Below, one piece after another: positions 672 through 60,984 of a stretch of DNA of 64,000 nt. Under the pieces are notes generated by a model. That model saw only the letters and a program-made list of their open reading frames with translations. It had not been told where the DNA came from and ran no database searches. The DNA is from Chthonomonadales bacterium (GTDB taxonomy: Bacteria > Armatimonadota > Chthonomonadetes > Chthonomonadales > CAJBBX01). The stretch is taken from contig DAIDHP010000001.1 in assembly GCA_027459625.1 (NCBI GenBank), forward strand, positions 1-64,000, in the 5' to 3' direction. A program made the translations under genes and the position numbers. Positions within the stretch are counted from its first letter, which is position 1, and each line of letters begins with the position of its first letter.

Positions 672-684
672 TTTAAGTCCTTTC

Positions 685-702
685 GGATATGATCCCATAT
701 CC
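685..702 (-). promoter_or_regulatory. Hairpin directly upstream of the pilQ ribosome site
   Basis: On the minus strand GGATATG and CATATCC pair perfectly (7 bp) around a 4-base loop, immediately before the AAAGGA ribosome site of pilQ. A second dyad, TCGTTAA/TTAACGA with a 12-base loop, lies at 777-802 in the same 180-base gap between pilP and pilQ. The gap is unusually long for this otherwise tight operon. The hairpins may set pilQ translation or act in transcript processing; that role is inference. Confidence 0.4.
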
Positions 703-851
703 AACGGTTATAAAAGGATACATGCAAATGGATATTTCACACTCCCTTTATATCTTATACTCGGCGCAAGAAGGTATCGTTAAGAATTATTGCAATTAAC
801 GAATATATTCTTTTAACGGTTCAGCTTGCAGGCTGAAAGAATACACAAACA

Positions 852-1628: not shown

Positions 1629-1772
1629 CAGTTGTCTCTTTTCACTTTGCAAAGGAATTCTCCGTAATGCAATCTTAAAGCTTGATCGCTGGTCTTAATG
1701 AATTAATGATACATAAATGGGCAAACGGAGTCGCGCAGATTCTAGACACCAACGCATACGCTCATATTTGCA

Positions 1773-2663: not shown

Positions 2664-2681
2664 GTTTTCTCCCTTTCCCTC

Positions 2682-3788
2682 TTAACCGGCCGTTGGCGGG
2701 CCACTTGCTTGAGGCCCAGCCATTCCACCGGGGGTGCCGGCGGGTGACGCCATGCCACCCGGAGCTCCCATCGGACCGCTCATGCCGCCAGGACCCCCAG
2801 GATATCCGCCCATTCCGCCGGGGAACCCACCCATACCGCCCGGCGTGTTGGAAGCACCGCCGGATTTTTGCGATGATCCGGAACTATAAGTTGGAGCGCC
2901 AGGTATGGGAGTGACTAGTGTCAACGTCACACCAAAAGTGTATCCGTAGAGATTGCCGTTCGCATCGGTCGGGCGATAGTGAGGATAGTTATCATCCTGT
3001 CCGCCTCCGCCGCCGCCTTGACCCGTTGTCATACCCATGCTATACGGATTGCCGCCGCTCATCGGGCTCATCGGGGTCATCATTGAGGACATCGGCGACT
3101 TAAATGATGACGCGGAAGAGGGAGGCATCATGCCGCCTGGATAGGGGGATCCACCGCCCCCTCCGCCAAAACCACCCATACCGCCACCTGACCGCCCGCC
3201 GCCGAGTACCAAATCAATCGCGTCCTGTTTGGTCTTTATCTCCGTGGTTACAAACTGCCCGCCCAATGTCTGATTGCCGCCCTTCCAAGGCGACGGGAAA
3301 GTTGGACGGAAGTTACTCAAATTGATATACAGATTGGAAATTTTGGGGTTATGCTCCATCCACATCATATAATGCCCCAACTGCGCCAAGCTAGGAGCGA
3401 ACGCCTGCATGGCGACCTGTGAGCCATTGGGGGTAATGGAATCATAAACCACCGAGCGAATCGTGTATTCCGCGATATTGTGATAAACCGGCGGATAGGT
3501 GGTCATATCGTATTGCCGGCAGCTTGTCACGAAATCAGCCTTTGTTTTAATATCGGCGCTTGCGGTTTGAATGCTTGTCGCTTTGCTCTCAGTCTGTGTC
3601 GCCTCGTCAGCCGTAGGTTTCAGTTGAGCCGCCGCAGCCGCCAAGCGGGCTGACTTGCGATCCATGACTATCTTCACGCTCATGAAGCCTACGATGATAA
3701 GGGCAACGACAGCCGACCATAAAACGATGACATTTCTGCGTTTCGAACGGTCGTAAATGTAATTTGGGAGAAGTGATATTCGAAGCAT
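2682..3788 (-). CDS. pilN: PilN-like pilus alignment protein
   Basis: The 368-aa product begins MLRISLLPNYIYDRSKRRN, a PilN-type N-terminus whose conserved I-LLP motif binds PilM, followed by one membrane helix (residues about 21-42) and a coiled-coil-like Ala/Thr-rich helix (about 43-85). The periplasmic part is interrupted at about 195-270 by a Gly/Ser/Met/Pro-rich insert and ends in a 60-residue Gly/Pro/Met tail. Typical PilN proteins are about 200 aa, so roughly half of this protein is low-complexity addition. It lies 15 bases downstream of pilM and 18 bases upstream of pilO. PilN recruits PilM to the inner membrane and pairs with PilO. Confidence 0.85.
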   Translation of the reverse strand: MLRISLLPNYIYDRSKRRNVIVLWSAVVALIIVGFMSVKIVMDRKSARLAAAAAQLKPTADEATQTESKATSIQTASADIKTKADFVTSCRQYDMTTYPPVYHNIAEYTIRSVVYDSITPNGSQVAMQAFAPSLAQLGHYMMWMEHNPKISNLYINLSNFRPTFPSPWKGGNQTLGGQFVTTEIKTKQDAIDLVLGGGRSGGGMGGFGGGGGGSPYPGGMMPPSSASSFKSPMSSMMTPMSPMSGGNPYSMGMTTGQGGGGGGQDDNYPHYRPTDANGNLYGYTFGVTLTLVTPIPGAPTYSSGSSQKSGGASNTPGGMGGFPGGMGGYPGGPGGMSGPMGAPGGMASPAGTPGGMAGPQASGPPTAG

Positions 3789-3803: not shown

Positions 3804-5156
3804 TTACTTCTTCTTTCCACGCTTACCGCTAACCAAAGGAGACGGCATGGAAGGGGGGATTATCATATCTCTGGCAGCCAATCCAATCGCCACAGCGAAT
3901 TGAGGCGCGACATCCTCCAGATACTCCATGGAGAAGTTTTTCGCGGTCGGGCGCACGTATGCGAGTGGAGAGGCTATATGTGTGGGAATATTAAACTCCC
4001 TCTCAAAATACTTATCCAGATTTTTTAATTTCGAGGAGCCACCGCATAACAATATCTCATCGATCTCTCCGCCCGTAGGACGTCCTTTGAAATAATCGAG
4101 AGATCGCTTGATCTCATCCTTAAGCTCCACAATCACCGAAGCAAGGGCTTGCTGCACTGCGTTCTCTTCTGGGTCGCCGACTGGAACAGGCGCGGGAAGC
4201 GCCGCATTAGGCTCCTCGACGCCGTTTGAAGTTTCCAACTCAATCGGTCGCTCATCCGCTTGTTGGAATAACGGCGAAGGCTTCTCGGGCTCTTCTTCAG
4301 GCACGGAGAAAATGAACGGCATGGCCCCTTCCTCCTCCTCCGGTTGCTGTGACGCAAAGTCCAGAAAATCCTCACCTTGCGGTATCACCGGTTGTGCAAG
4401 TTTCTCCAGATCAATCTCGCCGTGCTGCTTCTTCAGATCCTCCGCCTTGCGCTCGTCGACGCCAAGCTGAGACATAATGGAGCGCGTAATGTTTTTCCCT
4501 GCCAGTGGAATTGTGCGCGGAAACGCTATTACGCCGTTTTTATAGATGGCGATTTCGGTGTTGTTACTTCCGACATTCACGATAGCGACCGTTTTCTTGC
4601 CCCATGGGTCCGGACCGAGTTCCACCAATGCGCGAGAAATCGACAGAGGCTCCACGTCAATGGCTTTAGGTTTCAAGCCCGTGGCGAAAATAGTCTCGAC
4701 ATGCTTGTCGACCATATCTTGTTGGGCGACGACAAGCAACACTTCCATGTTCTGGTCGTTGGGATCGGCGTCCAGGCGCGGGATTGGCTGAAAATCCATC
4801 ACCACGTCATTAGCCGCGAATGGAACATGCCGTTCCACCTCCCAGCGCATCGTTTCCTTTAACTCCTCCTCGGTCATTTTCGGAACCTCTATCACACGAA
4901 CCACCAGAGCGGTCTCGCCTGATACGGAACTAATGACGGTCTTGGAAGTAATACCTGAATCCTTCAAAAGCTTTTTAATTACTCCACCGAGGAGATGAGG
5001 ATCCAAAATGATATTATTCTCCATAACCCCTTCCGGGGTGGGAACCATACCCAGAGCGCGAAGTTTCACCCCATCTCGACCGGATGACAACTCCACCACC
5101 TTGATCATACTGGAGCCGACATCCAAACCTACCGTCGGCGCAACCGACTTTGGCAT
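3804..5156 (-). CDS. pilM: Type IV pilus assembly ATPase-fold protein PilM
   Basis: The 450-aa product opens VGLDVGSSMIKVVELS, the phosphate-1 motif of the actin/FtsA-like PilM fold, and has a second nucleotide motif (AIVNVGSNNTEIAIYKNG, about 188-205) and a late one (EILLCGGSSKLKNLDKYFE). PilM is a cytoplasmic ring protein that binds the PilN N-terminus. The family is usually about 350 aa; the extra 90-100 residues form an acidic Pro/Glu-rich insert at about 265-350 (QQPEEEEGAMPF, PEEEPEKPSP). It is the first gene of pilMNOPQ, with its own consensus promoter upstream and a G-rich ribosome site before the ATG. Confidence 0.95.
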   Translation of the reverse strand: MPKSVAPTVGLDVGSSMIKVVELSSGRDGVKLRALGMVPTPEGVMENNIILDPHLLGGVIKKLLKDSGITSKTVISSVSGETALVVRVIEVPKMTEEELKETMRWEVERHVPFAANDVVMDFQPIPRLDADPNDQNMEVLLVVAQQDMVDKHVETIFATGLKPKAIDVEPLSISRALVELGPDPWGKKTVAIVNVGSNNTEIAIYKNGVIAFPRTIPLAGKNITRSIMSQLGVDERKAEDLKKQHGEIDLEKLAQPVIPQGEDFLDFASQQPEEEEGAMPFIFSVPEEEPEKPSPLFQQADERPIELETSNGVEEPNAALPAPVPVGDPEENAVQQALASVIVELKDEIKRSLDYFKGRPTGGEIDEILLCGGSSKLKNLDKYFEREFNIPTHIASPLAYVRPTAKNFSMEYLEDVAPQFAVAIGLAARDMIIPPSMPSPLVSGKRGKKK

Positions 5157-5476: not shown

Positions 5477-8400
5477 TTATTGAGCAGGCTTTAAATAGAA
5501 CTGCGGGCTGATTGTTTCATAATAAAGATCCGGCGTTCCGTCGCGTGTACTAACCCAGAAGACCCACACTTTATTCTCAAATGGATCCTTGAATGCAGCT
5601 ACCTGACCTTCGTTCACGCTCACCGTCGTAGGCAGTGCGGCTTCGGAAGTCGATTGATCGGCGGGAGTCACCGCAGCACTTATCTCATCCTGCCAGGAAA
5701 CCACTCCGGTCACCGTATCGGTACTGGTGTTCACAGCGTTTCCGCTTTGTGTGCTCTGCCAATTGTAGGTGATCGTAACGGTTCTGCCTTCATCGGCGGG
5801 CGTGAAGTATACGCGACCTCTCGCCCAGTCCACTTCATATGGCCCGACATTGCCTGTAACTGTGATGTTTTGAGTGGTTCCGTTATTCACGGTGCCATCG
5901 GGGTTCAAGAGAACACCATGATTCAAGCGAACCATCAACCGCATCGATTTGTAATATATCTGAGCCGGCGCCGGCAAACCGGAACCCGTCTTGCGATAGA
6001 ACAGCCAATATCTCGTAACTGGCATCGTCTGCGCAGGCGGAACCTGTGCATTGGAACCGGCTGCAAACACCATGCCTGGATATTGGTCTGGGCTCATATC
6101 CAAAAATGCGCTTGGATCCGTGCTGGAACCCGAGACGGGATCGGGCGGAAGATTGTTGCGATTTACATTCAGCCGCATAGTCTGCGGAATATAATTCGCC
6201 GTCACCACATCCGTCGGCGCCGGGGCTTTCCCCGTGAAGGTTACCGTCCCGACCGTCGGGTCTATCACGATCTCTCCGCCATTCGGATTGGAGTAATAGA
6301 TCTTCCCGGTGGCGTTGTCCCAACTGGCGTTGCCGGTGTTCACTTGCGTTCCGTTCACCATGATGCTGATGGGCGGGTTCGTATACTCCTGCGCCGTCCA
6401 AGCGATATCCCTGGATTGCCAGGTCTGCGTGGAGCCGACGCGAGCCATCAACTCATTCTGAGCAATCGGCAATGGAACCGGAGTTAACTGGTTTCCGTTG
6501 ATTACATATCTTGTCAGGAATGTCTCGGATTGCCCATTGGTGGGCATTTTACCCGTATATATCAAATCAATACAAGGCGGATTGAGATCATTTCTCAACA
6601 CCGGTACCGGATTGGACGCCCATTGCAAGGATCCCGGGGTGACGAGAGTTGTATCCGATTGCCATTTGGTCGGATCGGAGACCGTCGGATTGTAATTGAA
6701 ATACAACCGTGTTCTGCCGTTGGATCCGCTGAACCAGAATAGCCAAGCGGCACCGTTTAACACCACCGCTTTCGGCCCGTACTTAGGCAGTGACGGGTCG
6801 TTGGAGAACGCTGCGGGAGAACCGCCATTGAATGTCGTGTCAGGGACACCGTTGATCAACCTGGTGTAGAAAGTGCGCGTATCCTCGGTTGGCACAGTGG
6901 TGTTCATCGCCGCCGTGTACTGCCAGAACAGCCAGGATGTGTTATTGGCGGGATCAGTCGTGATACACGGGAACAGATTCTTAATGGTGGACGGGACATC
7001 CCCTGCAGGCGCGGGAGGATAGGGTCCGTTTATCGCATCCCACCAGCTTTGCGGAGTGCCGAACCGCCAGTCAAACACATTATTCGCTGCGTTGCTCGCC
7101 GAGGGCATCGTGGAGTAGAACAGGTTCCACGGAGCGTCCGGAGTACCCGGATCCACCCATTTGCCATTACTAGGAATGCGGTTACTCGACCAGTAGAGAT
7201 AGATATCATTCTTGCCCGCGTTATTATTCATCATCACCGCCGGCATGGCGTTCGCGCCATTCGGCACGTCCCCAGGCAGTCTGACATCCAGTTGATATGC
7301 GGACCCGGCAGTGGTGCCGTTGGTTAAGCGGGCTTCCGTCACGGTTGTCTTCAATGTGAACGGATTGGATACCACCGGCTCGACAGCTGGGAAGGAAGGT
7401 ATGGTTCCGGTCACCGGAGTGTTCAAAATACCATCGTCATTCACCGCAAGATTCAAGGGATCGGCAAGATTATTCCAAGTGGAATACTCGTTAACCCAGT
7501 TTCTCCAAGCGGCGGGCGTTTCATCCTCGAACACCATAACCTGGGTCGAGTATGTGCCAACGGGTGTGCCAAGCGGAACCGCGAAACCAATCTTCGGCTT
7601 GCCGCCAAACTGTGCGCCATTTGGGCCATCCCCTAGATACATGATAGTGGCGGAGGTATCCCCAACGTCAGGTTTGTGCAGGGTGGGCCGAGGCTGACTG
7701 TTGCCAGGCCAGTTCGGATTCGGAATCGGCCAGAGATTGGGTACGCTATCCCAGCTATCCGGAACTTGCTGGCCGTTAACAGTAATGCTGTGATCCAAGG
7801 AACTGACAATCCCGATATTGCCTGCGGCGGGCGGGCCGTTCGTGTTGAATCCCGGAGCCCATAGCTGACCGACACCGGTGGAGATCGGCACCTGATCGCT
7901 TGTCAAACCAAGCCAGCATGCGATGTTGGCAGGCGCGGTGTTGTTTCCTATCAACTTGGCGACCCGTAAATCCAACAGGTTGATATTGCCATTGTTTTTA
8001 ATTGTGAACGGTGCGAAGAATGACGTACCGTTGGGGTTGTCCCACGGCGATGTAGATCCCGTGTAGGGGCCAACTCCGCTTGGGGCAAACGGAATACTAT
8101 ACGTACCATTGGCGCCGAACGGCGAATATCCCGCTCCTTGAGGCTCCTGCCCCAAGTCAACCGTCTGTTCCTGTGTCTGAATGCTGAAATCAGGCGGTAC
8201 GGCAAGCCCCACATTGAATTGACGGAACGCCATCTCGGTGGAAGTAGGCGTTTGAGCGTTCTGCACTCCCGGCAACGCTGCATTCCCCTGGAAGGTACCG
8301 GTACCACTTGAATCCACGAATACAATCACCGTGCCGACATAACCCGCAGTGGGTGTGAGCAAAAGCTTGACCGTGGATGAATCGTTCGGTGTGGCGGGAA

Positions 8401-11400
8401 GACCGGTGGTAACGTTCATGGGACCGTACACATCCGGTGCGTTCGCGCTTGTGTGAGCCAGATCGTTGATGCCATAGTAAGCCGTGGATATGTTGGCGGG
8501 TTGATACTGGGGCACTTTCACATTCAAGTTCAGCACTAAGGGATTTAGAGTTTTAACATTGTTAACCACAGTCGCCATCGGCAAAGTGACCGCTTGCTGA
8601 GTCAAATCCGTTGAGGAGTTAACCGGCATCACCGTCGTATCAATCGCGGGAATGTCAGGATAATCCACGGAGTTATGGGTCGGGATAAGATACGTATCCT
8701 CCCATGGCAAGGCGTTCATCACTCCCAAGGTGGAATCGGTATTTCGATAGTTCCATCTCAAACTGTATCTCGCAACGCGTATGTTATTAAGCGGTTGCGC
8801 CAATTTATACATGTCGCTTCTATCGGCGATTGCGAGCGCCTGCACCGGAGTGCCATTCGTATCCACCGCGGAATAGGTTGCGCTGGAGTTATCCTTGATG
8901 AACCCCATCGGAGCAAAAACATCCTTCAATCCGGATACGGTTAATACGCCCGCAGTACCGGTGGCGGGATCTGTAACCAAACGGTTCCCATTCGACAGCA
9001 CTTCGCTGAAAACGCCATTCGCACTTGCATCCCACCCCATTTCGTTGGTTCCAGGACCAATGACATTACCGCGAGTGGTGATCGCCAAAGGATTTGCGAA
9101 GGTTATATTCCTTCCGGTGTTGCTTGGCTCGGTACCGTACATGGTGTACGTGGGAGCCACAGATGGCGTGTCGTAAAATTCCGGTGGATTCGGGTTCGTG
9201 CCCGAACCATCGGTGAAGTTCGGCGTTGTGAGCACATATTGCCCCGCCTGCAACTGGATCGTTGGCACGGTCACGGACGGTTTTCCCGGAAAAGCGGTCG
9301 AAGTCTGTTTGGCGGAAACGGTGATATGGTACACCGATCCCGGAGTCTGCGCGAAGACCTGAGAACTTCTTCCGATGGTGAACTGCGCCGTGGCGTACCA
9401 TGCATAGCCAGGCAACCACTGCGGAACCTGCAATGCCGGATTGGTATTCGTTGGGTCACCGGGTACATATACATATATTTGACTTCCGCTATAGGCTAAG
9501 TCCTGTTTGGCGGCGACAGTCTGAGTCTGATTCTGAGCGCCGCCAGTGAGGGTGAAGGTCACCTGCGGCACATTTGTCGGGCTAAGGTTGCCGTTGCTAT
9601 CCACTCCCCGATACCCGCCCCATGCGGCGGTGTAGATGGTGTCACCCCACTCGTAAACAAGGAAGTGTGTGTCGTTTCCCGTGCTATCGTTCGTATCATG
9701 TTTCCAGGTGCCAGTACGCCAAGCGTCATAAGGTGATGTTCCCCCGGCCTGTCCGAGATTAGCCCAGGGACTTGTCGCAACATCCTTTGTGGAATCCCAA
9801 ACATCCGCCAATCGGATATCCACACCTTCAAGATAGGCGCCGGGACCGGTTGGAGATATCCCAGGCTCTCCCGGCGGAATGTAATCATTCGTGTACGCCG
9901 TGTTGAAGTAGGCATGGAGCTGACCATTCACCTCGCCGTTATCCTGATTGCCTTCGTCGGAGTTGTACACCCACATATTCGAAGTGATCGCTTCGGAACC
10001 CCTCCAAACGTTAGAGGTGTTGAACTGTTGGATGGTGCCAGCGTTATCCACTTGCAAGGGGACATAGCCTATCAGCCCATCCTGCAACGACCAGATCAAT
10101 TTCCCCAAGCCCGTATCCGACGCGTCCAAGCCGATGATCGCACCCGTATCCAAAGGCAGCATAACGGCGGGTGATACCTTCGGCGCACCTGTCACCCATG
10201 CTTGATATGGAAGATTCGCCAGGAAAGTCACCGGCGCGCGCGTGGCGCCATATGTCGGACTCGCCCACTTCTGACTGCCCGTCGCCCCGTCGAGTTCATA
10301 GATGGATCCGCTTTGATTGGCGACGAAAACCGCCGCATTGCCGCCGTCTATGTTGACGTTCCCGGCGGGAATCCATGCAGGAGCCGTGAAATTCTCCGTC
10401 ACTGAAGGCGAGAAGGTCCAATTGACCGTCGGCGAACCGTTTGAAACCGTCTCAGGGTCGGAAATATCAAACACGTGTTCGCCTGCGGAGAAGATATAGT
10501 TTCCGTCAACCCCCTCGGACGTAAGCGCTCCCGGTTGCAATACCGGAGAGAGAGTCGGTGTGGTGTAGAACCATCTGGGTTGTCCGATATTGACACCGCC
10601 CGCCAACAGGTTCGATAATCGCTGGTGAGGATCGTTATTCTGCATATCCACGCAATACACAACGCCATCCCCGCTGCCATCGATAATACGGTCATTGGAG
10701 CCGGTTGCCGGATCGGTATGGATGGCGGGCGTCGCTGCAAAGGCGCCCTTGGAAGGATCATCCGATAACACCCCGCCAGCCGATTCGGATACGAATTTGA
10801 GCGCGGACAATGCAATGACGTGGCCAGCGGTGATATCCGCCGTGCTTCCGTCATTATAGATGGTCACCTGTCCGATAAAGTTGCCGTTCAGGTTTTGCTT
10901 GAACACCACATGGTTTTGCAGCAGTACCCATCTATCCCCCGGGATCGTCGGAGTGAAATTATTCTGGTTGATATAGACATCCTTGAACCCAGTGGATGTA
11001 TTTAATTGATAATGTGCGGATGTCGTGAAGTTGGCGGAACCAGTGCTCGGAATCCATGCATACACCGAATACATCGTGGTGCCGGCGGGCGGTGTCAAAG
11101 TCTGAGTCCAAGTGGCGTAAAGAGTGGGAGGCGCTGCCACAACCGGCGCTGAGAGATAGGTGAAATTCGAGCCATTCCACGAAACGGTATCCGTCACCGT
11201 GGTGAAGGAGGAAATGTTCGGGTAGGCGTCGAATTGTCCAGGAGGATAGGTGTTATCAACCGTCTTCACATCCGTCGGTAGCTGAGACACGAACATCACC
11301 GAATCCGCCACGACGATACGGTTTGCGGCGGCGTCCGTTGCGGAAGCGTTGCTCAGGCTTAACGTTAGGGTAGCCTTATTGTTCGCGTCCACCGGGAAGT

Positions 11401-14212
11401 TTATGTCCGTCGCCAGCAATCGCCATTTACCGACCGGAGGCAAAGCAGGATTAGGAGCAACGGCAGGCAGGACATTCCTCTGATCGAATGTCACAACCTG
11501 AGGGCCTGTTGCCGTGGTGAGCGTGTACTGAGCGCTTTGGGCGAAATTGCCGTTCAAATCCGCCGGAATCCACACATATACGTCGAAAACCGGAGCCTTC
11601 ACGTTCGGATCGAGTTGAACGCTTGTTGTCCATGTGGCGGTTGCGACCACACCCGTCGGATTTACCGCGTTCGCCTCGTGATAGTTGCCTTTGTTCGCCA
11701 TGGCGTCCACGGGGGCTGGGTTCACGGGAGTGAAGCCATTCACCGTTGTAAACGCCGGGTTGCCGTCGCTGTCATCCACATAGGCTTCAATCAGGCTTTG
11801 CATCCATTTGTCTCGACCAAGCGAAGGCCAAGTCATGGTGCGTCTGCCGGTACCGGCGATATGATTCACGAGAGTCGACTGATAGGGTTCCCCGATCGTC
11901 TCTCCGGCTAAATTCGGATTGGATACCGTTCTGCCTGCAGGGTCAAAAGCGTAGACCCTTCCATTCTGGTTACCTATTACAATATATGGTATGGAGACAT
12001 TCCCCTGCTTCACAAACACATAAGATGGAGAGGAGATAAATGGTCCCAATGGGGGGACGGTATTGACAACCGTATAATTCCCGGTGGTGTTGTTCGGGTC
12101 CTCCTGACCGCTCGGAGTCGGGCTGAGGTCCCCGTCAATGGCGTAGATGCCGCCATCCGTTCTGCCATCCGTACCCGTTCTTCCCTCCAAATTGTAAAGA
12201 TCGGGATTGTAGTTCGGGTCGTCCTGCGGACCGTTCATGATCCCGTTAGGAAGACGCGGATTGGATATCGATGGATAGACCCAGTACGGCGTGGTGGTGC
12301 CGTTTCCACCTAATGCGTCCAAACACCATACATGGCCATCACCGGTGCCAAAATAGACCACCGTGCGCGTTTTTCCGGAAGGCCACGTCACATCCTGTAT
12401 CAGCGGGGATGCGAGCACGCTGTTGGTCAACTGATTTTCCGCAACCAACTCCACCGCATCCGCGACGACCACATTATTATTAGTCACATCCGTGGCAGTG
12501 CTTTGGTTATTCAAGGAGATGTCCACCGCCTGCATCAGTGTCCCGCCTCCAACTCCGGGGAACTGAATATGCGAGGCGAGAAGCCTCCAGCCGCCTGTTG
12601 TTGTGGGAGCCGCTTGCTGATCCAAGGTGTAATTCTGCGTTCCAGCCGTGGTCACGATGGAGTAATTTGCCTGAGTGACATACGCCGGACCGGGAGCAGC
12701 CTCGGCTGCGGGAATCCACACATACACGGAATAGGTCGTGGAGTCTGTCGAACTTGTCACGGGAACTTGTGTTTTCCAAGAGAAAACGCTTGTCGCGGCG
12801 GCGACGGCGGGAGTTGTCTGATACTCAGATCCGTAACAGTCATTCCCGGTGACGGAAGTCCAGTCGGGCGGTCCTGGATCCGGGCTGTACGAAGCCCCGG
12901 AACTATTATCATCCACCACATACGATTGAGGAGTGGGACTGGCAACGTATCTCCAGCGCAGCACACCGTAATTCTTGTTCGTGGGATTGTTAATGTTGGC
13001 GTCATCATCCTCAAGACAGTAAAATGCGGCGTATCGGATGCTGCTGCTAGAATCGGCGACAACCGGATTATTGACAGGATCCACCGCTTGCGTTGGATTT
13101 AACGGGATCGCTTGAAAGCCCGCCGGGCTTCCGGGATTGGTCAGAGAGGGGAACAGTACGCCCGGTCCCTTGGTTTCATCCCTGCCAAAATAGGTGAGTT
13201 GCATCATCGCGGTAGGATTGTTGGGATCTTGCGGGCTCTGCGGAAACATTCGGCTCACCGGTGCGTCATGAATATCCCCGCGTCCCTGTTCCGGCACCAG
13301 TCTGACCGCGTTGGCGGGGACGATGGCGTTTGTGTTCGGATCGGGTGTGATGTTGTAAAGGGTGACCCGCAACGGATGCACTCCGTCATAAGGAAAATAT
13401 CGATCATCTCCGGGACCGGTGCGAATGCGCAACCAAAACCCTCCGGTCTGGCCGAAATTCAACATGAAAATACGGCTTGTGACGGGATCATCCACGTTCG
13501 CCCCCCAACTCACTCTCACCATCGCGTAATCCACATTCGGAAATGTGGCGTTATTCACGATCGTGCCGCTGTTCGGGAATCTTATGTATATGGCGTAACG
13601 TTGGTTTGCAGCTAGAGGTTGTCCGCTAACATCCGTCGTGCCTTGCATGGTTCCGGCGGGGTATTCCGTCCCAAAGGACCATTGCGCCCAGCCGGTGGAG
13701 GCGTTGGTGGGTAGTTCGCCATTCACCTCGGAATAGGTCTGCACAGCGGAGCCGTCCGTGCCAAGATCTGGCAGCAAAGCCAGAGTGCTTTCTCCAATGG
13801 TACTGCCCAGTACAGGGTCATATGTGGCATGTGCGTAAACATAATCCCCGACATTGGCGGAATTTGGATCGGCGGGAGGCCAAGCTCCAGAAGCTCTCAC
13901 ATTGGAGTTATCCGCAGTATTGATTGCGTTATTCCAAGCACCGTTTGTTGTAAAGCTTTGTCCCGTAGCATTAGGAGTCGTCTGGAGATTATCCACCACA
14001 ATCTCGGGAGGCATTGAAGCGGTATTCGGATATTTATATACGAATCCAAGCTGCTGTTGAGCGTTTACTATGCCCGTGTCGTTATTTGTTCCAGTGCGCG
14101 TGGGTCCTCCGCGGTGGGTTACCCAATCCACAGTCTGGCATTGTGCCGCAAGCAAGGAGGCGCACAATAGGATCATTACGCCCACAAGCGTTTTCGCTTG
14201 TTTATGCTCCAT
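5477..14212 (-). CDS. Giant secreted beta-propeller and golvesin-like protein, candidate PilY1 analogue
   Basis: The 2911-aa product has an excellent ribosome site (GAGGTGA) and a signal peptide ending near AAQC. The mature start WVTHRGGPTRTG is of the type that opens PQQ-like propellers. Propeller blades are visible at about 619 (YFGTGDGHVWCLDA), 750 (VIGNQNGRVYAFD), 1180 (GSGDGVVYCVD) and 1294 (VANQSGSIYELDGATG). Between them lie at least three golvesin/Xly-type carbohydrate-binding-like modules (about 450-595, 837-976, 999-1142), each with YSVYVWIP-like and VVADAVEFV-like motifs. The C-terminal third has repeated beta modules ending in YWLFYRKTGSG and VWVFWVSTRDG. It lies between the minor pilins and pilM, where proteobacterial loci carry the propeller tip protein PilY1. 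A tip adhesin role is inference from position and fold only. Confidence 0.75.
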   Translation of the reverse strand: MEHKQAKTLVGVMILLCASLLAAQCQTVDWVTHRGGPTRTGTNNDTGIVNAQQQLGFVYKYPNTASMPPEIVVDNLQTTPNATGQSFTTNGAWNNAINTADNSNVRASGAWPPADPNSANVGDYVYAHATYDPVLGSTIGESTLALLPDLGTDGSAVQTYSEVNGELPTNASTGWAQWSFGTEYPAGTMQGTTDVSGQPLAANQRYAIYIRFPNSGTIVNNATFPNVDYAMVRVSWGANVDDPVTSRIFMLNFGQTGGFWLRIRTGPGDDRYFPYDGVHPLRVTLYNITPDPNTNAIVPANAVRLVPEQGRGDIHDAPVSRMFPQSPQDPNNPTAMMQLTYFGRDETKGPGVLFPSLTNPGSPAGFQAIPLNPTQAVDPVNNPVVADSSSSIRYAAFYCLEDDDANINNPTNKNYGVLRWRYVASPTPQSYVVDDNSSGASYSPDPGPPDWTSVTGNDCYGSEYQTTPAVAAATSVFSWKTQVPVTSSTDSTTYSVYVWIPAAEAAPGPAYVTQANYSIVTTAGTQNYTLDQQAAPTTTGGWRLLASHIQFPGVGGGTLMQAVDISLNNQSTATDVTNNNVVVADAVELVAENQLTNSVLASPLIQDVTWPSGKTRTVVYFGTGDGHVWCLDALGGNGTTTPYWVYPSISNPRLPNGIMNGPQDDPNYNPDLYNLEGRTGTDGRTDGGIYAIDGDLSPTPSGQEDPNNTTGNYTVVNTVPPLGPFISSPSYVFVKQGNVSIPYIVIGNQNGRVYAFDPAGRTVSNPNLAGETIGEPYQSTLVNHIAGTGRRTMTWPSLGRDKWMQSLIEAYVDDSDGNPAFTTVNGFTPVNPAPVDAMANKGNYHEANAVNPTGVVATATWTTSVQLDPNVKAPVFDVYVWIPADLNGNFAQSAQYTLTTATGPQVVTFDQRNVLPAVAPNPALPPVGKWRLLATDINFPVDANNKATLTLSLSNASATDAAANRIVVADSVMFVSQLPTDVKTVDNTYPPGQFDAYPNISSFTTVTDTVSWNGSNFTYLSAPVVAAPPTLYATWTQTLTPPAGTTMYSVYAWIPSTGSANFTTSAHYQLNTSTGFKDVYINQNNFTPTIPGDRWVLLQNHVVFKQNLNGNFIGQVTIYNDGSTADITAGHVIALSALKFVSESAGGVLSDDPSKGAFAATPAIHTDPATGSNDRIIDGSGDGVVYCVDMQNNDPHQRLSNLLAGGVNIGQPRWFYTTPTLSPVLQPGALTSEGVDGNYIFSAGEHVFDISDPETVSNGSPTVNWTFSPSVTENFTAPAWIPAGNVNIDGGNAAVFVANQSGSIYELDGATGSQKWASPTYGATRAPVTFLANLPYQAWVTGAPKVSPAVMLPLDTGAIIGLDASDTGLGKLIWSLQDGLIGYVPLQVDNAGTIQQFNTSNVWRGSEAITSNMWVYNSDEGNQDNGEVNGQLHAYFNTAYTNDYIPPGEPGISPTGPGAYLEGVDIRLADVWDSTKDVATSPWANLGQAGGTSPYDAWRTGTWKHDTNDSTGNDTHFLVYEWGDTIYTAAWGGYRGVDSNGNLSPTNVPQVTFTLTGGAQNQTQTVAAKQDLAYSGSQIYVYVPGDPTNTNPALQVPQWLPGYAWYATAQFTIGRSSQVFAQTPGSVYHITVSAKQTSTAFPGKPSVTVPTIQLQAGQYVLTTPNFTDGSGTNPNPPEFYDTPSVAPTYTMYGTEPSNTGRNITFANPLAITTRGNVIGPGTNEMGWDASANGVFSEVLSNGNRLVTDPATGTAGVLTVSGLKDVFAPMGFIKDNSSATYSAVDTNGTPVQALAIADRSDMYKLAQPLNNIRVARYSLRWNYRNTDSTLGVMNALPWEDTYLIPTHNSVDYPDIPAIDTTVMPVNSSTDLTQQAVTLPMATVVNNVKTLNPLVLNLNVKVPQYQPANISTAYYGINDLAHTSANAPDVYGPMNVTTGLPATPNDSSTVKLLLTPTAGYVGTVIVFVDSSGTGTFQGNAALPGVQNAQTPTSTEMAFRQFNVGLAVPPDFSIQTQEQTVDLGQEPQGAGYSPFGANGTYSIPFAPSGVGPYTGSTSPWDNPNGTSFFAPFTIKNNGNINLLDLRVAKLIGNNTAPANIACWLGLTSDQVPISTGVGQLWAPGFNTNGPPAAGNIGIVSSLDHSITVNGQQVPDSWDSVPNLWPIPNPNWPGNSQPRPTLHKPDVGDTSATIMYLGDGPNGAQFGGKPKIGFAVPLGTPVGTYSTQVMVFEDETPAAWRNWVNEYSTWNNLADPLNLAVNDDGILNTPVTGTIPSFPAVEPVVSNPFTLKTTVTEARLTNGTTAGSAYQLDVRLPGDVPNGANAMPAVMMNNNAGKNDIYLYWSSNRIPSNGKWVDPGTPDAPWNLFYSTMPSASNAANNVFDWRFGTPQSWWDAINGPYPPAPAGDVPSTIKNLFPCITTDPANNTSWLFWQYTAAMNTTVPTEDTRTFYTRLINGVPDTTFNGGSPAAFSNDPSLPKYGPKAVVLNGAAWLFWFSGSNGRTRLYFNYNPTVSDPTKWQSDTTLVTPGSLQWASNPVPVLRNDLNPPCIDLIYTGKMPTNGQSETFLTRYVINGNQLTPVPLPIAQNELMARVGSTQTWQSRDIAWTAQEYTNPPISIMVNGTQVNTGNASWDNATGKIYYSNPNGGEIVIDPTVGTVTFTGKAPAPTDVVTANYIPQTMRLNVNRNNLPPDPVSGSSTDPSAFLDMSPDQYPGMVFAAGSNAQVPPAQTMPVTRYWLFYRKTGSGLPAPAQIYYKSMRLMVRLNHGVLLNPDGTVNNGTTQNITVTGNVGPYEVDWARGRVYFTPADEGRTVTITYNWQSTQSGNAVNTSTDTVTGVVSWQDEISAAVTPADQSTSEAALPTTVSVNEGQVAAFKDPFENKVWVFWVSTRDGTPDLYYETISPQFYLKPAQ

Positions 14213-14285
14213 TTCTAACTCACCTCAATTCCAAATTCCACCCATTCATTGATGGAAAGGTCAAATCTCAATAAAAGAAATACTT

Positions 14286-17200
14286 TCATGGCTGCACCGC
14301 ACACATTGGAGCTTCTAATAGCTGGGTGGATGTGCCGTTCAATTGGGAGCCGATATATCGGCGAATGGAGTTATTCACAATCATCTCACCGGGCGTACGC
14401 CAAATGATGCTTGGGTTTGGTGTCGTCGCCAAAGTCCCTCCAACAGCAACGTAGTCGGGCACATATCCGTCGTATGGGGCTGTTGGATTGTAGGCGGTGG
14501 GATCTAATACGAACACCTCTCCGTCGAACTCCGCAGGCGGTATGTTGTTAGGTCCGAACACAGTGGTGTCCGTCAATCCCCGATAGTGATTGGTTATAAG
14601 GAACTGATGGAGCAATCCGTTGGCGCTCACCGATTTTGACAGTCGTCGAATACTTGTCGCCTCAAGGTGATTTCCCGTCATGTGATAGTAATCGTTCGCC
14701 GTGATCATCCATTCCGTATCCATCAAATTGGGATTGTTGGCGTCGGGAACCAACTGGTAACATCCGTTCGCATCGCAAAGTAGATAGTGAAATGTCAACG
14801 TGTTTCCGCTGCCAACTGTGAAACTGGTGAAGCAGGTTGGGTTCACTATCGGTTGTAATTTGCCGTTCGGCAAAAGGATGTTGGATAGTGTCGAAGAGAT
14901 ATTCCCATTGGCGTCCAACACAACCACCGACCCGCCTCCCGATGGCGCCTGGTCCCCGTTTGAATTAGACTCGATACCCGGCAAGCCCACAATGCGCGAG
15001 TTGGACACGCAAGCCAAAGTCAACGGAATTGGAGGATTGTTAGGATTTGCCGGATCCGCCTTCCATATGCGTTCCGCCGTGGTATAGCGATATTTTTTCC
15101 CATTCAGAGTGGTTTGACTTGCCCACACCACCACCCATGGGGGAGGCGTGCCGATTTGATTGGCGTTAAAGGTGTTCACCAACTCAAGGATACGATAATT
15201 CCCCGTATCGGCGACCAAACAGTGTTCCGTGTAGGTCTGACCATTCGGGCCGGCATCTGTCCAGAAAGTGCAGTCCATAGGAGCGTTCAACGTCAAAGGT
15301 TGATTGGCTCCGAGAATATTATTGGGATCAGTGAAACTACTGATCTCCCATACTATGTTGCCGCCGCTGTCAATCTGAACCACCCTGTTATTGCCGGTAT
15401 CCACCACAACATAGTTGTTGTTCTGAGCCGAACGAATGACGGATGGCGATGAAAACGGAATCATGCTCGTCATTGCGACGCCTGTGTCCACGAGATTGTT
15501 GATGGGTTGGCCGTTACCGTTGCCATTTGCATCAAATCCAATGTACAACGGCAGTTGTCCGCCTGCAACCACGTAATTTCGGGTTCCACCGCAAGTCCAG
15601 ACGGCGTCGCCCGCAGCGTCCACTTCAACAAGGCGATTCTTATCCGCAATTACGGTAAAGGTGTTTGTGTATTCGCGAAGTCCGCCCTCGGTATTGGCGA
15701 TCATCACGTTCTCGGTCCCAATGGGAGCGCTTAATAGCGGACCAGCGTCTCCAGGCACATTCCATTCCAAGTCCATCACAGTATCCATGTGTCCCTGAAC
15801 GGTGGTTGTGGTGAAGAGAGGAACCTGTCCACCCTTTCCCTGTATCGTGGGATCGGTAAGGGTCGGATTGGCATCCACCCCAATCGCCTCGCCGCCTGCA
15901 AAGCCCATCCATAAAGTGTTCCCCTGAATGGACGGTGAGGAGGTTACCAACCCCAAAGCCGGATTGGTGACCTTGGGCGAAAGGGCGTTGGCGGGTGGAT
16001 TTAACGCGGCGGGAAAGACCATGTACCATAAAAGGTTGTTCACGCTGCCCGGTGTCGCGGGGACCTCCGTCTCCGTTCCCGATCCTACCTGCACGACAAA
16101 CGGCAGGGATGCCGAAACGAAATTATTCACCGTTCCCGGAATCGCCATGGATGTTATGGTGATGTTCCCCGAAGCATAATCTATCGTGTATTGACTGGGC
16201 TGCAAATCCACTCTCGCCGCTGTGGTTGTATTGGTCATAAGCTCCGGATTAAACTGCCATATCCGAACGGTTTGATTGGGATCTATCGCCTGACCCAACC
16301 TAAGCATGATATTCGGATCGGCGTTGAACGCACACAGAACAGACACGGGATTCCCTGCGATTTGCGCTGTTGCGACAGCATACGCCGTGTTATTGTACCA
16401 AGCCGGAGAGCCGATGAATTGCACATTGGTGATTGGCTGACCCGCTCCGGGTTGCGTCGGATCGTTTTGCACAAGCGTGGGCGGCACCTGAACGGTCTGA
16501 TTGTTCACTTGGATGCTGTACCCATCCTGCATCACATAGGTCCATTTCAATATCGGCCGGGTTTCCTGCTCATTCTCCGCGAATAGTACCCCTCGCCCCG
16601 GATTGGTTGATCCGGAAGGAGTGGTATTCACCCCGTAAAGCAGAATATCATCCGGGGTGAGCGACGGCGTGCCGCTGATGAAGTTTCCTGCGGAATTCAC
16701 ATCCGGAGCGAACATCATCCTTCTTTGAACGCCGGAATTCAAAGCGGTGTTCGACCAGTCGAGAGTATAGTTCGCATAGAACGTGCAGAGAGGATCGTTT
16801 GTGTTGAACGAATCCACAGTCGGACCGATGACCACCTTGTTCACCACTACGGTGAACTGATCCGCCGCAGGCACGCCTGAAACATAATGCAACTCCTCCT
16901 CAGCGTCCGCCTGCCCCGTAACGTTATGATGTACCAGAAAAACCCGCGGGCGCAGCAATGGGTTCCCATTACCCGGATTGTTCGGGTCGTAGATGTACCA
17001 CGGGACGTTCGTAGTGGTGCGAGAGGATTGGAAGATGTAGTCGTTATTCTGAGTTCCGCTCTGAACCAATACGTCCCCCTTGGTCCCAAACCAAAAAGCT
17101 CGTACGGACGCCGCATACTTTGTCCCATCCGTACCGGTATAGGCGGGAACGGTGACGTACACCACCTTGTCATTGGCCCCGGAAGCGGTATCTTGTACAT

Positions 17201-19052
17201 AACCCACAGTCGGCGAAGACCAGATGGAGGGGTTTCCAGGTGTGACAGGCACGGAAGCGTCCTGCCAATCGTGTTGACCGATATTTCCGTTCGGTCCTGG
17301 TTCGAACGCACTCTCTCCGTTTCGCGGATCAATCGCGACCACGCGTCCGCCGTTGGCGGTATTCACACCAAGGAAGAGCACACCTTCCGACCATGCCACC
17401 GATGGCACGGGCATATTGCTTGGAAGATTGTAATTCGTCCCGAAATTCTGGGGCGAAACCCAGTCCACTTCGGGAGTGGCGGAAAGCGGATAAACGGGCG
17501 GGATGTTGTCTCGCGGAAACGCCCTTGCGGCCACCACCGTTCCGGTATTCAAAACCACAATCACCAATTGACGCGTGAAGAAATTTGCATGCCCTGAAGC
17601 CGTTGGGGGATTGTTCCCGAAGCTGGGATCGTAGAACGAAATCACCGTGGGGGTCGATGCGCGCGTGGCGTTGGGATCGATGCTTTTAAGATTTAGACGC
17701 CATATCTCGTCATAAGAGGCGCCATAGGCGTAATCCGGAATGCCATCGTCTGGCGTGCCGTCCCCATCAAGATCCGTGCCAGGGTCTATCTTGAAGCAGT
17801 GCAGCACCAAGTTGGAATCCACGTTAAAGATGCAATGGTTGAAAACCGCAGGAGCGGACACGGGAACCGGTCCTGGTGCGGCGTATCTCCATTTTTCCGT
17901 TAGTGAAGTGCCCACGTTTTCCGGAGAATAACCCGTTCGGCGAACGTCGGTATGAGCGGTGGTGTGACTTGACGCCCAAGACAGTAAGTTATATACGAAT
18001 TTCAGATCTGGAACATGCGCGGCGGCGAAGTTGGTTCCGCTCACCGCCCCACTGTTTCCACCGTAACCGGCGTTGGCTCCGCCTACGTAATCATTGATGG
18101 CGCAACCTGAATCCTGTACGCTGAAGACGATCCTTCCGTCTCCCATCTGACCCGCCAATATATAGGGACGCCAGGTGGAACCTGGGTTCCCGTTTCCGGG
18201 AGGCGCCTGCCCAAGCGTGTTCCATACGATGGGGGTCAGTTCGTCCGTTCCTGGAACCACTCCGGGAGGACTGTCCGTCGTTGATCCAATGGGATTTTGA
18301 TAGAGGTAGTATCCATGAACTCCTTTGTCACCTATGGTTTGGATCTCTTGCGGTGTAAGGACATAAGGGGTGGTTAATAATGGGCTCAACGGGTCGCCAA
18401 TCGCTCCTTGACCATTGCCCCCCCCGTTATTCATCTGCACATCAAACAAAAAAGGCGAATTTGGATTGAAGGACAGACCGCCGCAGTCTTCGATCCACAG
18501 GGTTCCGCCGCCCTCCACGTATTTTATCAGCTTATCCAACTCATCGGCGGTGAAGCTGATATTATGCATATGGGTGTGGATGTAGAGCAGATCGAACTGG
18601 CGCATATCCGCCACGGTGATATTGTCCAAGTTCACTTCCCAGTAGGCGCCCATGTTTTTAGTGACCTGCGCACCCACCTTGAATATCTGATATTGCGGTG
18701 TGCCGGGAGTAAACGCGGGATCGCTGCCGTTTTGACGCGCATTCCATCTCTGGTAGATAGCGGGGGTTATGACCGATGGGGCAAGCGGATTTTCTAAAAT
18801 CATTCCCGCAGGCTTTAGATCGGTTCTGCTATCAAGCACATAGAAAAAATTGGGGTCTGGGTTTTCCGGATAGCTCCCAGGAATGGAGCCATTTTTATTC
18901 GCGATGTTTTCCGCCGCGCATACAAGCATGCCGACATTGACTACGCGCTGTTGGTTATTGTAAACAAACGAGTCGGCGTATCCCTTAGTCGTCAGCAGTC
19001 CGCATCCCAAAAGGGTCCATATGATAAAGTATGATTTTAGGCGGGTTTTCAT
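14286..19052 (-). CDS. Large secreted protein: GATase-like N-domain, propeller and NHL repeats
   Basis: The 1588-aa product starts MKTRLKSYFIIWTLLGCGLL, a signal peptide; longer starts (to 19121, a TTG) lack a ribosome site. Residues about 20-260 include DLLYIHTHMH and ELDKLIKYVEGGGTLWIED, the pattern of DUF4159/ThuA-like GATase-fold domains. The middle has PQQ-like segments (VFLVHHN and AIDPRNGES regions). At about 1120-1290 three NHL-like units appear (ADKNRLVEVDAAGDAVW, VDTGNNRVVQIDSGGNIVW, VADTGNYRILEL). It is 73 bases upstream of the 2911-aa gene and downstream of the minor pilins, so both giants probably belong to the pilus locus. Its biochemical role cannot be read from the sequence; extracellular binding is the likeliest use. 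Confidence 0.7.
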   Translation of the reverse strand: MKTRLKSYFIIWTLLGCGLLTTKGYADSFVYNNQQRVVNVGMLVCAAENIANKNGSIPGSYPENPDPNFFYVLDSRTDLKPAGMILENPLAPSVITPAIYQRWNARQNGSDPAFTPGTPQYQIFKVGAQVTKNMGAYWEVNLDNITVADMRQFDLLYIHTHMHNISFTADELDKLIKYVEGGGTLWIEDCGGLSFNPNSPFLFDVQMNNGGGNGQGAIGDPLSPLLTTPYVLTPQEIQTIGDKGVHGYYLYQNPIGSTTDSPPGVVPGTDELTPIVWNTLGQAPPGNGNPGSTWRPYILAGQMGDGRIVFSVQDSGCAINDYVGGANAGYGGNSGAVSGTNFAAAHVPDLKFVYNLLSWASSHTTAHTDVRRTGYSPENVGTSLTEKWRYAAPGPVPVSAPAVFNHCIFNVDSNLVLHCFKIDPGTDLDGDGTPDDGIPDYAYGASYDEIWRLNLKSIDPNATRASTPTVISFYDPSFGNNPPTASGHANFFTRQLVIVVLNTGTVVAARAFPRDNIPPVYPLSATPEVDWVSPQNFGTNYNLPSNMPVPSVAWSEGVLFLGVNTANGGRVVAIDPRNGESAFEPGPNGNIGQHDWQDASVPVTPGNPSIWSSPTVGYVQDTASGANDKVVYVTVPAYTGTDGTKYAASVRAFWFGTKGDVLVQSGTQNNDYIFQSSRTTTNVPWYIYDPNNPGNGNPLLRPRVFLVHHNVTGQADAEEELHYVSGVPAADQFTVVVNKVVIGPTVDSFNTNDPLCTFYANYTLDWSNTALNSGVQRRMMFAPDVNSAGNFISGTPSLTPDDILLYGVNTTPSGSTNPGRGVLFAENEQETRPILKWTYVMQDGYSIQVNNQTVQVPPTLVQNDPTQPGAGQPITNVQFIGSPAWYNNTAYAVATAQIAGNPVSVLCAFNADPNIMLRLGQAIDPNQTVRIWQFNPELMTNTTTAARVDLQPSQYTIDYASGNITITSMAIPGTVNNFVSASLPFVVQVGSGTETEVPATPGSVNNLLWYMVFPAALNPPANALSPKVTNPALGLVTSSPSIQGNTLWMGFAGGEAIGVDANPTLTDPTIQGKGGQVPLFTTTTVQGHMDTVMDLEWNVPGDAGPLLSAPIGTENVMIANTEGGLREYTNTFTVIADKNRLVEVDAAGDAVWTCGGTRNYVVAGGQLPLYIGFDANGNGNGQPINNLVDTGVAMTSMIPFSSPSVIRSAQNNNYVVVDTGNNRVVQIDSGGNIVWEISSFTDPNNILGANQPLTLNAPMDCTFWTDAGPNGQTYTEHCLVADTGNYRILELVNTFNANQIGTPPPWVVVWASQTTLNGKKYRYTTAERIWKADPANPNNPPIPLTLACVSNSRIVGLPGIESNSNGDQAPSGGGSVVVLDANGNISSTLSNILLPNGKLQPIVNPTCFTSFTVGSGNTLTFHYLLCDANGCYQLVPDANNPNLMDTEWMITANDYYHMTGNHLEATSIRRLSKSVSANGLLHQFLITNHYRGLTDTTVFGPNNIPPAEFDGEVFVLDPTAYNPTAPYDGYVPDYVAVGGTLATTPNPSIIWRTPGEMIVNNSIRRYIGSQLNGTSTQLLEAPMCAVQP

Positions 19053-19166: not shown

Positions 19167-21884
19167 TTAACCGGAGGTTGCTACGTTCGTATAAATGATT
19201 TGCGGACACACCGGCAATTTGGGCACCGGCGGCAGAATTCTGCCCCACATATCCTGGCGAACCGGCGTGTTCGTGCCCGGCAGGAATGGGTTCCACAATA
19301 CCGGATCATATAAGAATCGCAATCCTTGAACGTTCGACATGCCTTCGTCCACTCCCCCCGCAAAACCCACGTCGGTTCCTTTGACGTGCGCATCCGGCAC
19401 CGCTACGTTGGAACTCCCATCCTCTCGGGGAATATAGCCCCATAATTGCATCCACGAGGATTGGTCCGCAATGGTTGCGGTTCTGTTCTCGGCGACGGCT
19501 CCGTCGATGGTGATACGGCAATCCACCGGCTGGTAATAATAAGGATACATTGGGTCCGTTCCCTCGGGACGTGCTCCGGATGCCGCATAATTTTCAGGTG
19601 TGTCGTTCGGGTTCATGTTCATCGGATACCCCGGAATGATAAAGAACGATCCGTTCTGGGCGTATATCAAAGCCTCGATGCGCACATCCATCGGCTCCAC
19701 GGCGGCTTGGCTGAAGAGATAATCCTGAGGCGGCGGAGGCCCATACTGCGTGGGATCCGGACCAAGGGATATCTGATTGACATCGCCGGGCAAGGATGTC
19801 AGCGTATAATTTGAATTATTCGGAGCAGGCTCCAATTGGAAACTTCTATGCTCGAACAGGTCCTGCTGCAATGTGTTCTGGATCACCCAAGTGGTGGAAT
19901 TAGGCGCGAAATGGTACAAGGAATCGCCTGGATTCGTCTCCATCCACTGGTTGATGAACATGTTCATGTAGGTCGCGCCAGGCGGCGGGTTGTTCTGCGG
20001 CGACCCCTGTCGTAACAATAAAAAGATGGGGGATGCGGATCCGTTTGTTGTGTACTGGCTTGCATCATCGCCAAACATGAATGCCAGAGTGAATCGCTGT
20101 CCGATGGGTATGTCCATATCGAACGGATCGCTGGGATCCCCGGACGTGTTAACGAAATTCGGCGGGGTTGTGGGCTGCAGGAACACGGTTGTATTCACTG
20201 CAACATAATCCTTGGCAAGCAATGCGATCATGGAATCCGGAGCTTCACGTATGAGGCTTCCCTCAATGTAGATATTCGCATTTGAAACGAATGTCAGAGC
20301 CGGAGGCTGCGCGAGAGCCATGTCGCCATTGCCAGGCCCCCTCACAGGAATGTTCGCCTTCGCCGGAGCTATTCCGGCGATTCGAATATCGCCCTCCGCG
20401 AGGATCACACCGTTAAATGGCGGCAACCAAGCGTCCACCTCGGCATCCGTGGCGTTATTCCCCATCTGCGCTTTCAGGTACGCCCTGTAAAATGGGTTGT
20501 CCAGTTTCAGCACGGGCACTGAGTTGTCCGCCGGCTTATAATAGAAGAAGTAAAACGTCTCCTGTTTGGATGGAGGGTTCGTTGAGTCGTTGTTGCCTGG
20601 AGGATCCGGGAAATTCGCATCCGTCCTCGTCATCTGTATCCCCGGTTCCGCCGGATTACCGAAATACCCCAGCCGTACGATGACTCCGCACTTTGGATCG
20701 TAGTACGGCCCGACCCAGTGCGGGTTATTGTGGTCCAACCAAAGCGACGGCAGCGTTTGCCCTCCATAAACATTGGTGGTTTCCTGCTCGTAATCGTTGA
20801 AATCGTTGATATAAATCCCGTTGCCAAGGCAGTAGTTCCCGGACATGGAGCCGGTATTGGGCAGATTGCTGCCGGAATCCCTCGTAAGGGAATAATAGCG
20901 ATTCGCCCCGGAGTTCGGGTCCACACTGTCGATCCGCGGTGGATCCAATCTAGTGATTCCACGCGGATAACCGTTCGCGTCGGGATTCGGGGATGCGTCC
21001 CGTATCAAACCGCCAAAGGTGTTGAAATTACCCGAACTCGGCACAATGGCATTCCCATTAAGAGTTGGATCATAGATGTTTCCGTTGATGGTTTCACTCG
21101 CCAAGCTGATATTTCCAGCCGCCATTACGGCGTTATTCTGCGCCCCGAATTCCTGAAGTGCGAGGTTTCCCATCAATTTCAAATCGCAGTTGGCGAAGAT
21201 CGGCGCCCCTGTCTGAGTAAAGGTTCCGCCTGGGGTTCGCACGTTCACCCCGCCCATTTGCTCCGGATAGATGACGCCCGTCGGAGGAGCTCCGATATCC
21301 GCTTCCTCTTTCGAGTCATTATTGATATTGGTGATATATCGCAAATAGTCAGGCAATCCGATCGCCATATACGCCACCACTTTGCGACGCAGGCGCGGCG
21401 GAGAGGCGGTGAAAGTGGTGGGGTCATTCGGATTGAAATAACCCACTCGCCCTATCGATTCAATCTTGAGGTACCGTTTGTTCGCGCTATTCGGATCGGA
21501 GAAATAGGATACGCGAATGAGAGCTCGCCCTCCGCCCAAATCGATCCTGGCGTATCTGCCCTCGGGATCCGTGCTGTTCAAGTATATAAGATCCGGATCG
21601 TTCGGTTGTAACTCGGATCGGTCAGGCAATGGCGGACGCCAATCAGCGCCGTCCGGGCTATGCAGCAAGCAGTAGCTGGCATATTGAATTCCAGCCAGAG
21701 CATATCGCCTGGCGGACTCGCCTTGTTGGTATTCACCGGCGTTTTGGAGATTACGGGCCACCAACGCCACGAAAAGACCGCCAATGAATAGGAGAAGGAA
21801 CATTGTGATGATCGCCACCACCAAGGCCTGTCCCTTTTGCCCGCCATGTACGAATCGTATGGAATTGTTCTTCCGACCTGTCAT
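19167..21884 (-). CDS. Oversized PilX/GspK-like pilus-associated protein
   Basis: The 905-aa product begins with QKGQALVVAIITMFLLLFIG, the PilX N-terminal pattern (basic-Gly-Gln-Ala followed by one long hydrophobic helix), then ALVARNLQNAGEYQQ and SARRYALAGIQYA, which are typical of the helical spine of these minor pilins. The rest is a large beta-rich, Asn/Pro-rich region of about 800 residues with no recognised motif. PilX proteins are usually under 200 aa. It follows the other minor pilins and precedes the propeller genes, as pilX precedes pilY1 in proteobacteria. It probably belongs to the pilus tip or initiation complex; GspK of type II secretion is the nearest alternative. Confidence 0.7.
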   Translation of the reverse strand: MTGRKNNSIRFVHGGQKGQALVVAIITMFLLLFIGGLFVALVARNLQNAGEYQQGESARRYALAGIQYASYCLLHSPDGADWRPPLPDRSELQPNDPDLIYLNSTDPEGRYARIDLGGGRALIRVSYFSDPNSANKRYLKIESIGRVGYFNPNDPTTFTASPPRLRRKVVAYMAIGLPDYLRYITNINNDSKEEADIGAPPTGVIYPEQMGGVNVRTPGGTFTQTGAPIFANCDLKLMGNLALQEFGAQNNAVMAAGNISLASETINGNIYDPTLNGNAIVPSSGNFNTFGGLIRDASPNPDANGYPRGITRLDPPRIDSVDPNSGANRYYSLTRDSGSNLPNTGSMSGNYCLGNGIYINDFNDYEQETTNVYGGQTLPSLWLDHNNPHWVGPYYDPKCGVIVRLGYFGNPAEPGIQMTRTDANFPDPPGNNDSTNPPSKQETFYFFYYKPADNSVPVLKLDNPFYRAYLKAQMGNNATDAEVDAWLPPFNGVILAEGDIRIAGIAPAKANIPVRGPGNGDMALAQPPALTFVSNANIYIEGSLIREAPDSMIALLAKDYVAVNTTVFLQPTTPPNFVNTSGDPSDPFDMDIPIGQRFTLAFMFGDDASQYTTNGSASPIFLLLRQGSPQNNPPPGATYMNMFINQWMETNPGDSLYHFAPNSTTWVIQNTLQQDLFEHRSFQLEPAPNNSNYTLTSLPGDVNQISLGPDPTQYGPPPPQDYLFSQAAVEPMDVRIEALIYAQNGSFFIIPGYPMNMNPNDTPENYAASGARPEGTDPMYPYYYQPVDCRITIDGAVAENRTATIADQSSWMQLWGYIPREDGSSNVAVPDAHVKGTDVGFAGGVDEGMSNVQGLRFLYDPVLWNPFLPGTNTPVRQDMWGRILPPVPKLPVCPQIIYTNVATSG

Positions 21885-27839: not shown

Positions 27840-27923
27840 GTAACATCTCCCTCCGAAAAAACTCAAGGGAAGGGAGCGTCTGAAAACGCCCCCCTTCCGG
27901 ATAACGCTCTGTAATTCTTTCGA

Positions 27924-60941: not shown

Positions 60942-60984
60942 TTATTCATTTTGTTGATTATTTTAATTAAATGAAAGTATATAA

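Follow-up and report, generated by a model that had tools for sequence, protein, structure and literature searches.

Detailed knowledge of type IV pilus tips comes mainly from lineages that bear PilY1. In Myxococcus, the pilus is primed by the minor pilins together with PilY1, which also make up its tip (PMC7541494). The junction between PilX and PilY1 is predicted to be a strand complementation, with the N-terminal domain of PilY1 at the very tip, and one in three described PilY1 proteins follows a plan in which a vWFA domain is combined with a propeller (PMC13190605). The two giant proteins considered here, P2 (1588 aa) and P1 (2911 aa), are encoded in the window, a stretch of 64,000 nucleotides from a Chthonomonadales bacterium of the phylum Armatimonadota, and searches of the open-access literature (Armatimonadota with PilY1; DUF4159) returned no earlier description of either. 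Judged from sequence, it is fairly probable that P2 and P1 belong to the extracellular part of a type IVa pilus, where they stand in the place of PilY1 and form an oversized tip/priming complex with long minor pilins.

The locus lies on the minus strand and runs from pilB through pilT, pilC, pilD, a pilin and the PilV-, PilW- and PilX-position genes to P2, P1, pilM and pilN/O/P/Q:

30489..32327, minus strand: pilB (PF00437 and MshEN, Pfam)
29222..30400, minus strand: pilT (PF00437, Pfam)
27924..29150, minus strand: pilC (PF00482, Pfam)
26802..27866, minus strand: pilD prepilin peptidase (PF06750/PF01478, Pfam)
25902..26663, minus strand: pilin, 253 aa (N_methyl and DUF1559)
23852..25672, minus strand: PilV-position minor pilin, 606 aa (N_methyl; TIGR02523 PilV at 2.4e-7, under its cut-off)
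21942..23792, minus strand: PilW-position minor pilin, 616 aa (N_methyl; synteny)
19167..21884, minus strand: pilX-position protein, 905 aa (position, N-terminal hydrophobic segment, synteny)
14286..19052, minus strand: P2, 1588 aa, secreted (intact ORF; homologs)
5477..14212, minus strand: P1, 2911 aa, secreted (intact ORF; homologs, PDB profile, Pfam)
3804..5156, minus strand: pilM (PF11104, Pfam)
852..3788, minus strand: pilN, pilO and pilP, three ORFs (assigned by order and synteny)
3-704, minus strand: 5' part of pilQ (STN domain, order), running off the contig end

PilB, PilT, PilC, PilD, PilM and the prepilins, found together by Pfam, mark a type IVa pilus locus. Within it, pilN and pilO have no Pfam match and are both named by order, pilP has at most a sub-threshold T2SSC match, pilQ is matched in its STN domain alone before the contig ends, and the pilX-position protein fell into no Pfam family among 16 members. 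The sequence-only reading had placed two giant secreted proteins directly after the minor pilins, and this holds: both open reading frames are present and intact behind N_methyl prepilins, that of P2 (14286-19121, minus strand) giving 1611 aa from a TTG or 1588 aa from the ATG at 19052. Given that 74-115 bp separate the pilX-position gene, P2 and P1, and that the 320-bp gap between P1 and pilM contains a promoter-like site (11/12), P2 and P1 probably share transcription with the minor pilins. A second PilT-like ATPase is encoded at 38229-39365, away from the main pilus cluster. Elsewhere in the window, a segment of low GC (59874-62610; about 39.5% versus 52%) carries a gene for a SIR2-like protein and one in which an Mrr-type nuclease domain is joined to an N6/N4 DNA methylase; it appears to be an inserted defence or restriction-modification system.

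Both giants have secretion-type N-termini and lack a prepilin motif in their sequences. P2 consists of a DUF4159 domain, overlooked in the earlier reading, followed by a PQQ-like region and an NHL-type propeller:

17913..18965, minus strand: DUF4159 alpha/beta domain, P2 residues 30-380 (PF13709)
17733..17774, minus strand: acidic DLDGDGxxDDG loop in the first PQQ-like blade, P2 residues 427-440 (motif search)
15153..15662, minus strand: NHL-type propeller blades, P2 residues about 1131-1300 (PDB profile; AlphaFold2)

DUF4159 (PF13709) is matched by 22 of 23 members of the P2 family at E<=0.01 (best 8.4e-9), the window's own P2 staying under threshold (21.2 against a cut-off of 25.9). The loop motif recurs in 13/23 P2 homologs, with D435, G437 and D448 invariant, and is a possible calcium site. 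A profile of residues 389-1588 finds NHL propellers in the PDB (Pizza6 8e-11, TRIM71 7e-7, Brat 3e-5). The AlphaFold2 model of the same residues (mean pLDDT 73.4, pTM 0.66) is better than that of P1, and Foldseek likens it to proteins with several propellers, among them DDB1 and an Elongator subunit, at poor rigid superposition.

P1 begins with an N-terminal region, continues with a PQQ/BamB-type propeller that carries golvesin inserts, and ends in a conserved middle and C-terminal repeats:

9893..13207, minus strand: PQQ/BamB-like propeller interrupted by golvesin modules, P1 residues 336-1440 (PDB profile, Pfam, AlphaFold2, Foldseek)
12413..12955, minus strand: golvesin module between blades, P1 residues 420-600 (Pfam Golvesin_C; occupancy across 33 homologs)
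10769..11797, minus strand: two more golvesin-like modules, P1 residues 806-1148 (identity to the conserved module)
7316..9145, minus strand: middle region, P1 residues 1690-2299 (phylum-wide conservation in alignment)
5480..7315, minus strand: C-terminal W-x-F-W repeats with two inserted VDxxxGxIxF beta modules, P1 residues 2300-2911 (alignment, repeat HMM)

The PQQ-type propeller is well supported. A profile of residues 336-1535 matches the designed Cake10 (8e-21), 3hxj (7e-7) and BamB (9e-5) in the PDB, and the best Pfam matches of the P1 family are Beta-prop_ACSF4 (6e-23), Golvesin_C (1e-17) and PQQ_2 (6e-14). The AlphaFold2 model of these residues is of low confidence (mean pLDDT 54.5, pTM 0.49); Foldseek places BamB at the top (1.9e-7, 334 columns of a 364-residue chain, at an rmsd of about 4-9 A or more), and on our reading of the predicted strands the propeller would have about 7-8 blades; closure into a ring is possible. 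Golvesin_C (PF25275) matches three stretches of P1 and passes its threshold (48.6 bits against a cut-off of 31.6). The three modules share 31-34% identity. The one at residues 420-600 occurs in several Armatimonadota families and is missing from a sister family (f3), and the pair at 806-1148 is particular to the window genome, being absent from all 32 homologs aligned. Since homolog alignments stop at residue 805 and restart at about 1149, this stretch is, on the alignments, a clean lineage-specific insertion between blades, its modules being apparently copies related to the conserved one. The middle region corresponds to no known family and has no PDB match, with a weak GEVED match in 2 members (Pfam). 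The C-terminal region, likewise with no usable PDB or Pfam match beyond weak PD40 in 2 members, is repetitive (an HMM built on the last repeat matched 11 others and gave 0.0 matches per shuffled set) and possibly forms another propeller. The motif VDxxxGxIxF...VxVxY occurs twice at the C-terminus, and similar patterns occur in PilV/PilW of several relatives. A module common to P1 and PilV/PilW was suggested by single-HMM searches (best match 8e-6, to the PilW of G062, in a small sequence set) and was weak profile-to-profile, and that claim was dropped.

The folds that had been read from the sequence alone, PQQ-like blades, NHL repeats and golvesin-like modules, are thus borne out beyond chance by PDB and Pfam profiles, with the correction that golvesin is confined to P1 and NHL to P2. 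Structure prediction, which had been proposed as a check, recovered propellers in both proteins through Foldseek, at poor superposition and at low to moderate mean pLDDT; ring closure is a possibility for both.

Neither P1 nor P2 matches the PilY1 family (PF05567) at E<=1, nor do their homologs at E<=0.01, and the family is found in 0/291 Armatimonadota genomes; as a control, the established PilY1 of a classical pilV-pilW-pilX-pilY1 cluster was recovered at 186-190 bits. Membership of P1 or P2 in the family was rejected on Pfam, NCBIfam and hhalign, whose alignment to a single PilY1 is weak. The gene directly behind pilV-pilW-pilX is nevertheless P2, followed by P1, as pilY1 is in the control cluster. 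Given this position and the missing family match, P1 and P2 are positional, and probably functional, counterparts of PilY1 from outside its family; they resemble it in place and general fold and not in descent from the same family.

Profile searches across 291 Armatimonadota genomes recovered P2 from 239 and P1 from 205, and a single-sequence search of 121 relatives found them in 90 and 58, respectively; the lower count may reflect faster divergence of P1. Both families are kept as open frames across the phylum. In one genome (G007) P1 is divided into two overlapping frames (L067 4976-7843 and 7786-13038), being a single frame in its congeners G009 and G011; the split is a frameshift or an assembly error. 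Forty-one genomes carry the P2 and P1 matches on a single contig, and in every one of them P1 follows downstream of P2 and co-directionally (the count leaves aside 11 further genomes with the matches on separate contigs); the order pilB-pilT-pilC-pilD-pilin-pilV-pilW-pilX-P2-P1-pilM recurs throughout the phylum. In all 20 neighbourhoods examined, from about 16 families, minor pilins and/or pilM stand beside P2/P1. Relatives carrying P1/P2 away from pilus loci were sought, and none appeared among these pairs and neighbourhoods. On such gene order, the link of P1 and P2 to the pilus is strongly supported. The suggestion of a lineage-specific pilus survives with a change of scale, the lineage being the whole phylum. 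Beyond the phylum, a profile scan limited to two peptide patterns gave 25 loci, titled Armatimonadota, Chthonomonas, Fimbriimonas or just "bacterium". The presence of PilM, nearly universal and multi-copy, proved useless as a discriminating marker. In a genome of the window's own genus (G001, 92% complete) neither P1 nor P2 was found, and its PilM matches fall far short of those in G000 (best 1.8e-18 versus 2.8e-42); its pilus locus may have been lost or left unassembled.

What P2 and P1 do at this locus can be read in more than one way. It is unlikely that they are substrates, large secreted or surface proteins pushed through the PilQ secretin by a minor-pilin pseudopilus and not parts of the fibre. 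Their ordinary secretion signals without a prepilin motif would suit such a role, golvesin and propeller modules occur in secreted enzymes too, and some filament systems of this kind do secrete proteins. However, PilT and PilM are both encoded here, which is typical of a type IVa pilus and not of a type II secretion system, substrates seldom hold a constant place such as this one, flanked by the pilX position and pilM, throughout a phylum, and the lengths of the minor pilins suggest fitted partners. Indeed, these pilins (phylum-wide medians of about 640 aa for PilV, about 656 for PilW and about 1017 at the PilX position) look as if scaled to giant partners. Rather improbable, too, is an arrangement in which P2 alone is the counterpart of PilY1, on the PilX-position protein, and P1 works with the PilMNOPQ machine at the cell surface or in the periplasm. 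In favour of this, P2 is found in more genomes and combines an alpha/beta domain with propellers, and split clusters keep P2 with the minor pilins and P1 with pilM: in one (G062) P2 lies behind the pilX-position gene and P1 before pilM, and in another (G049) P1 adjoins a PilM match. Yet P1 usually follows right behind P2 across short gaps, the promoter-like site beyond P1 suggests co-transcription of the two, and the difference in counts may stem from the faster divergence of P1. That P1 and P2 are unrelated cell-surface proteins beside pilus genes by chance is barely credible, common as propellers and golvesin modules are in secreted proteins generally, and is rejected on the 41/41 co-linear pairs and the pilus genes in 20/20 neighbourhoods.

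An oversized tip complex of both giants remains the best explanation for a place and order the same as in PilY1 loci and for the long minor pilins. On this model, P2 and P1 would be exported via Sec and would join the long PilV, PilW and PilX-position proteins in a tip/priming complex, onto which the pilin fibre would then be built; P2/P1 would end at the fibre tip, where their propellers and golvesin modules could touch surfaces or polymers. We infer the presence of P2/P1 at the tip, their part in priming and in adhesion, and which one contacts the minor pilins. By analogy, the joining of an N-terminal alpha/beta domain to propellers in P2, which parallels the vWFA-bearing PilY1 proteins, speaks for the model. 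Fimbriimonas, of the same phylum, has fimbriae and yet is non-motile (PMC4072686), and an attachment role would fit this. Against the model, P1 keeps to pilM and not to the minor pilins in split clusters and could differ in role from P2, confidence in the predicted structures is low to moderate, the hhalign alignment to PilY1 is weak, and the P1 propeller is N-terminal.

More broadly, it is a serious possibility, offered tentatively, that the phylum has swapped PilY1 for an unrelated two-protein tip of about half a megadalton, with several propellers, lineage-specific inserted binding modules and minor pilins several times the usual size, and so represents an independent solution to building and arming a type IV pilus tip. 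The two gene families, at a phylum-wide locus, are candidates for capping and priming in a lineage that has no PilY1, which suggests that more than one kind of propeller protein can take the tip position. Seeking giant propeller proteins behind minor pilins, instead of PF05567, may uncover tips in other phyla.

Several known systems resemble parts of this one. The propellers of BamB and PQQ dehydrogenase have the blade pattern and fold of P1 336-1440, whereas P1 carries large modules between its blades, is extracellular and shows no sign of an enzymatic or BAM function. NHL-repeat propellers (TRIM71, Brat and the Pizza designs) have blades like those of P2 at about 1131-1300, which belong, by contrast, to a multi-domain bacterial secreted protein. 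The long Verru_Chthon cassette proteins (TIGR02596-TIGR02600) have similar prepilin-like N-termini and give weak matches to C and D, but these are limited to the N-terminal pilin helix, fall far under the cut-offs and include no counterpart of P1 or P2. The PilY1/PilC family is like P1/P2 in its place after pilV-pilW-pilX, its secretion, its large size and its PQQ-type beta-propeller, and like P2 in having an alpha/beta domain at the N-terminus and, within a propeller-like blade, an acidic DxDGDG loop. Unlike PilY1, the Armatimonadota locus has two proteins (1588 and 2911 aa) for one, DUF4159 in P2 replaces vWFA, P1 has golvesin inserts and adjoins pilM, and, where the PilY1 propeller is C-terminal, the PQQ propeller of P1 lies in the N-terminal half. 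The propellers of P2 lie in its C-terminal two thirds.
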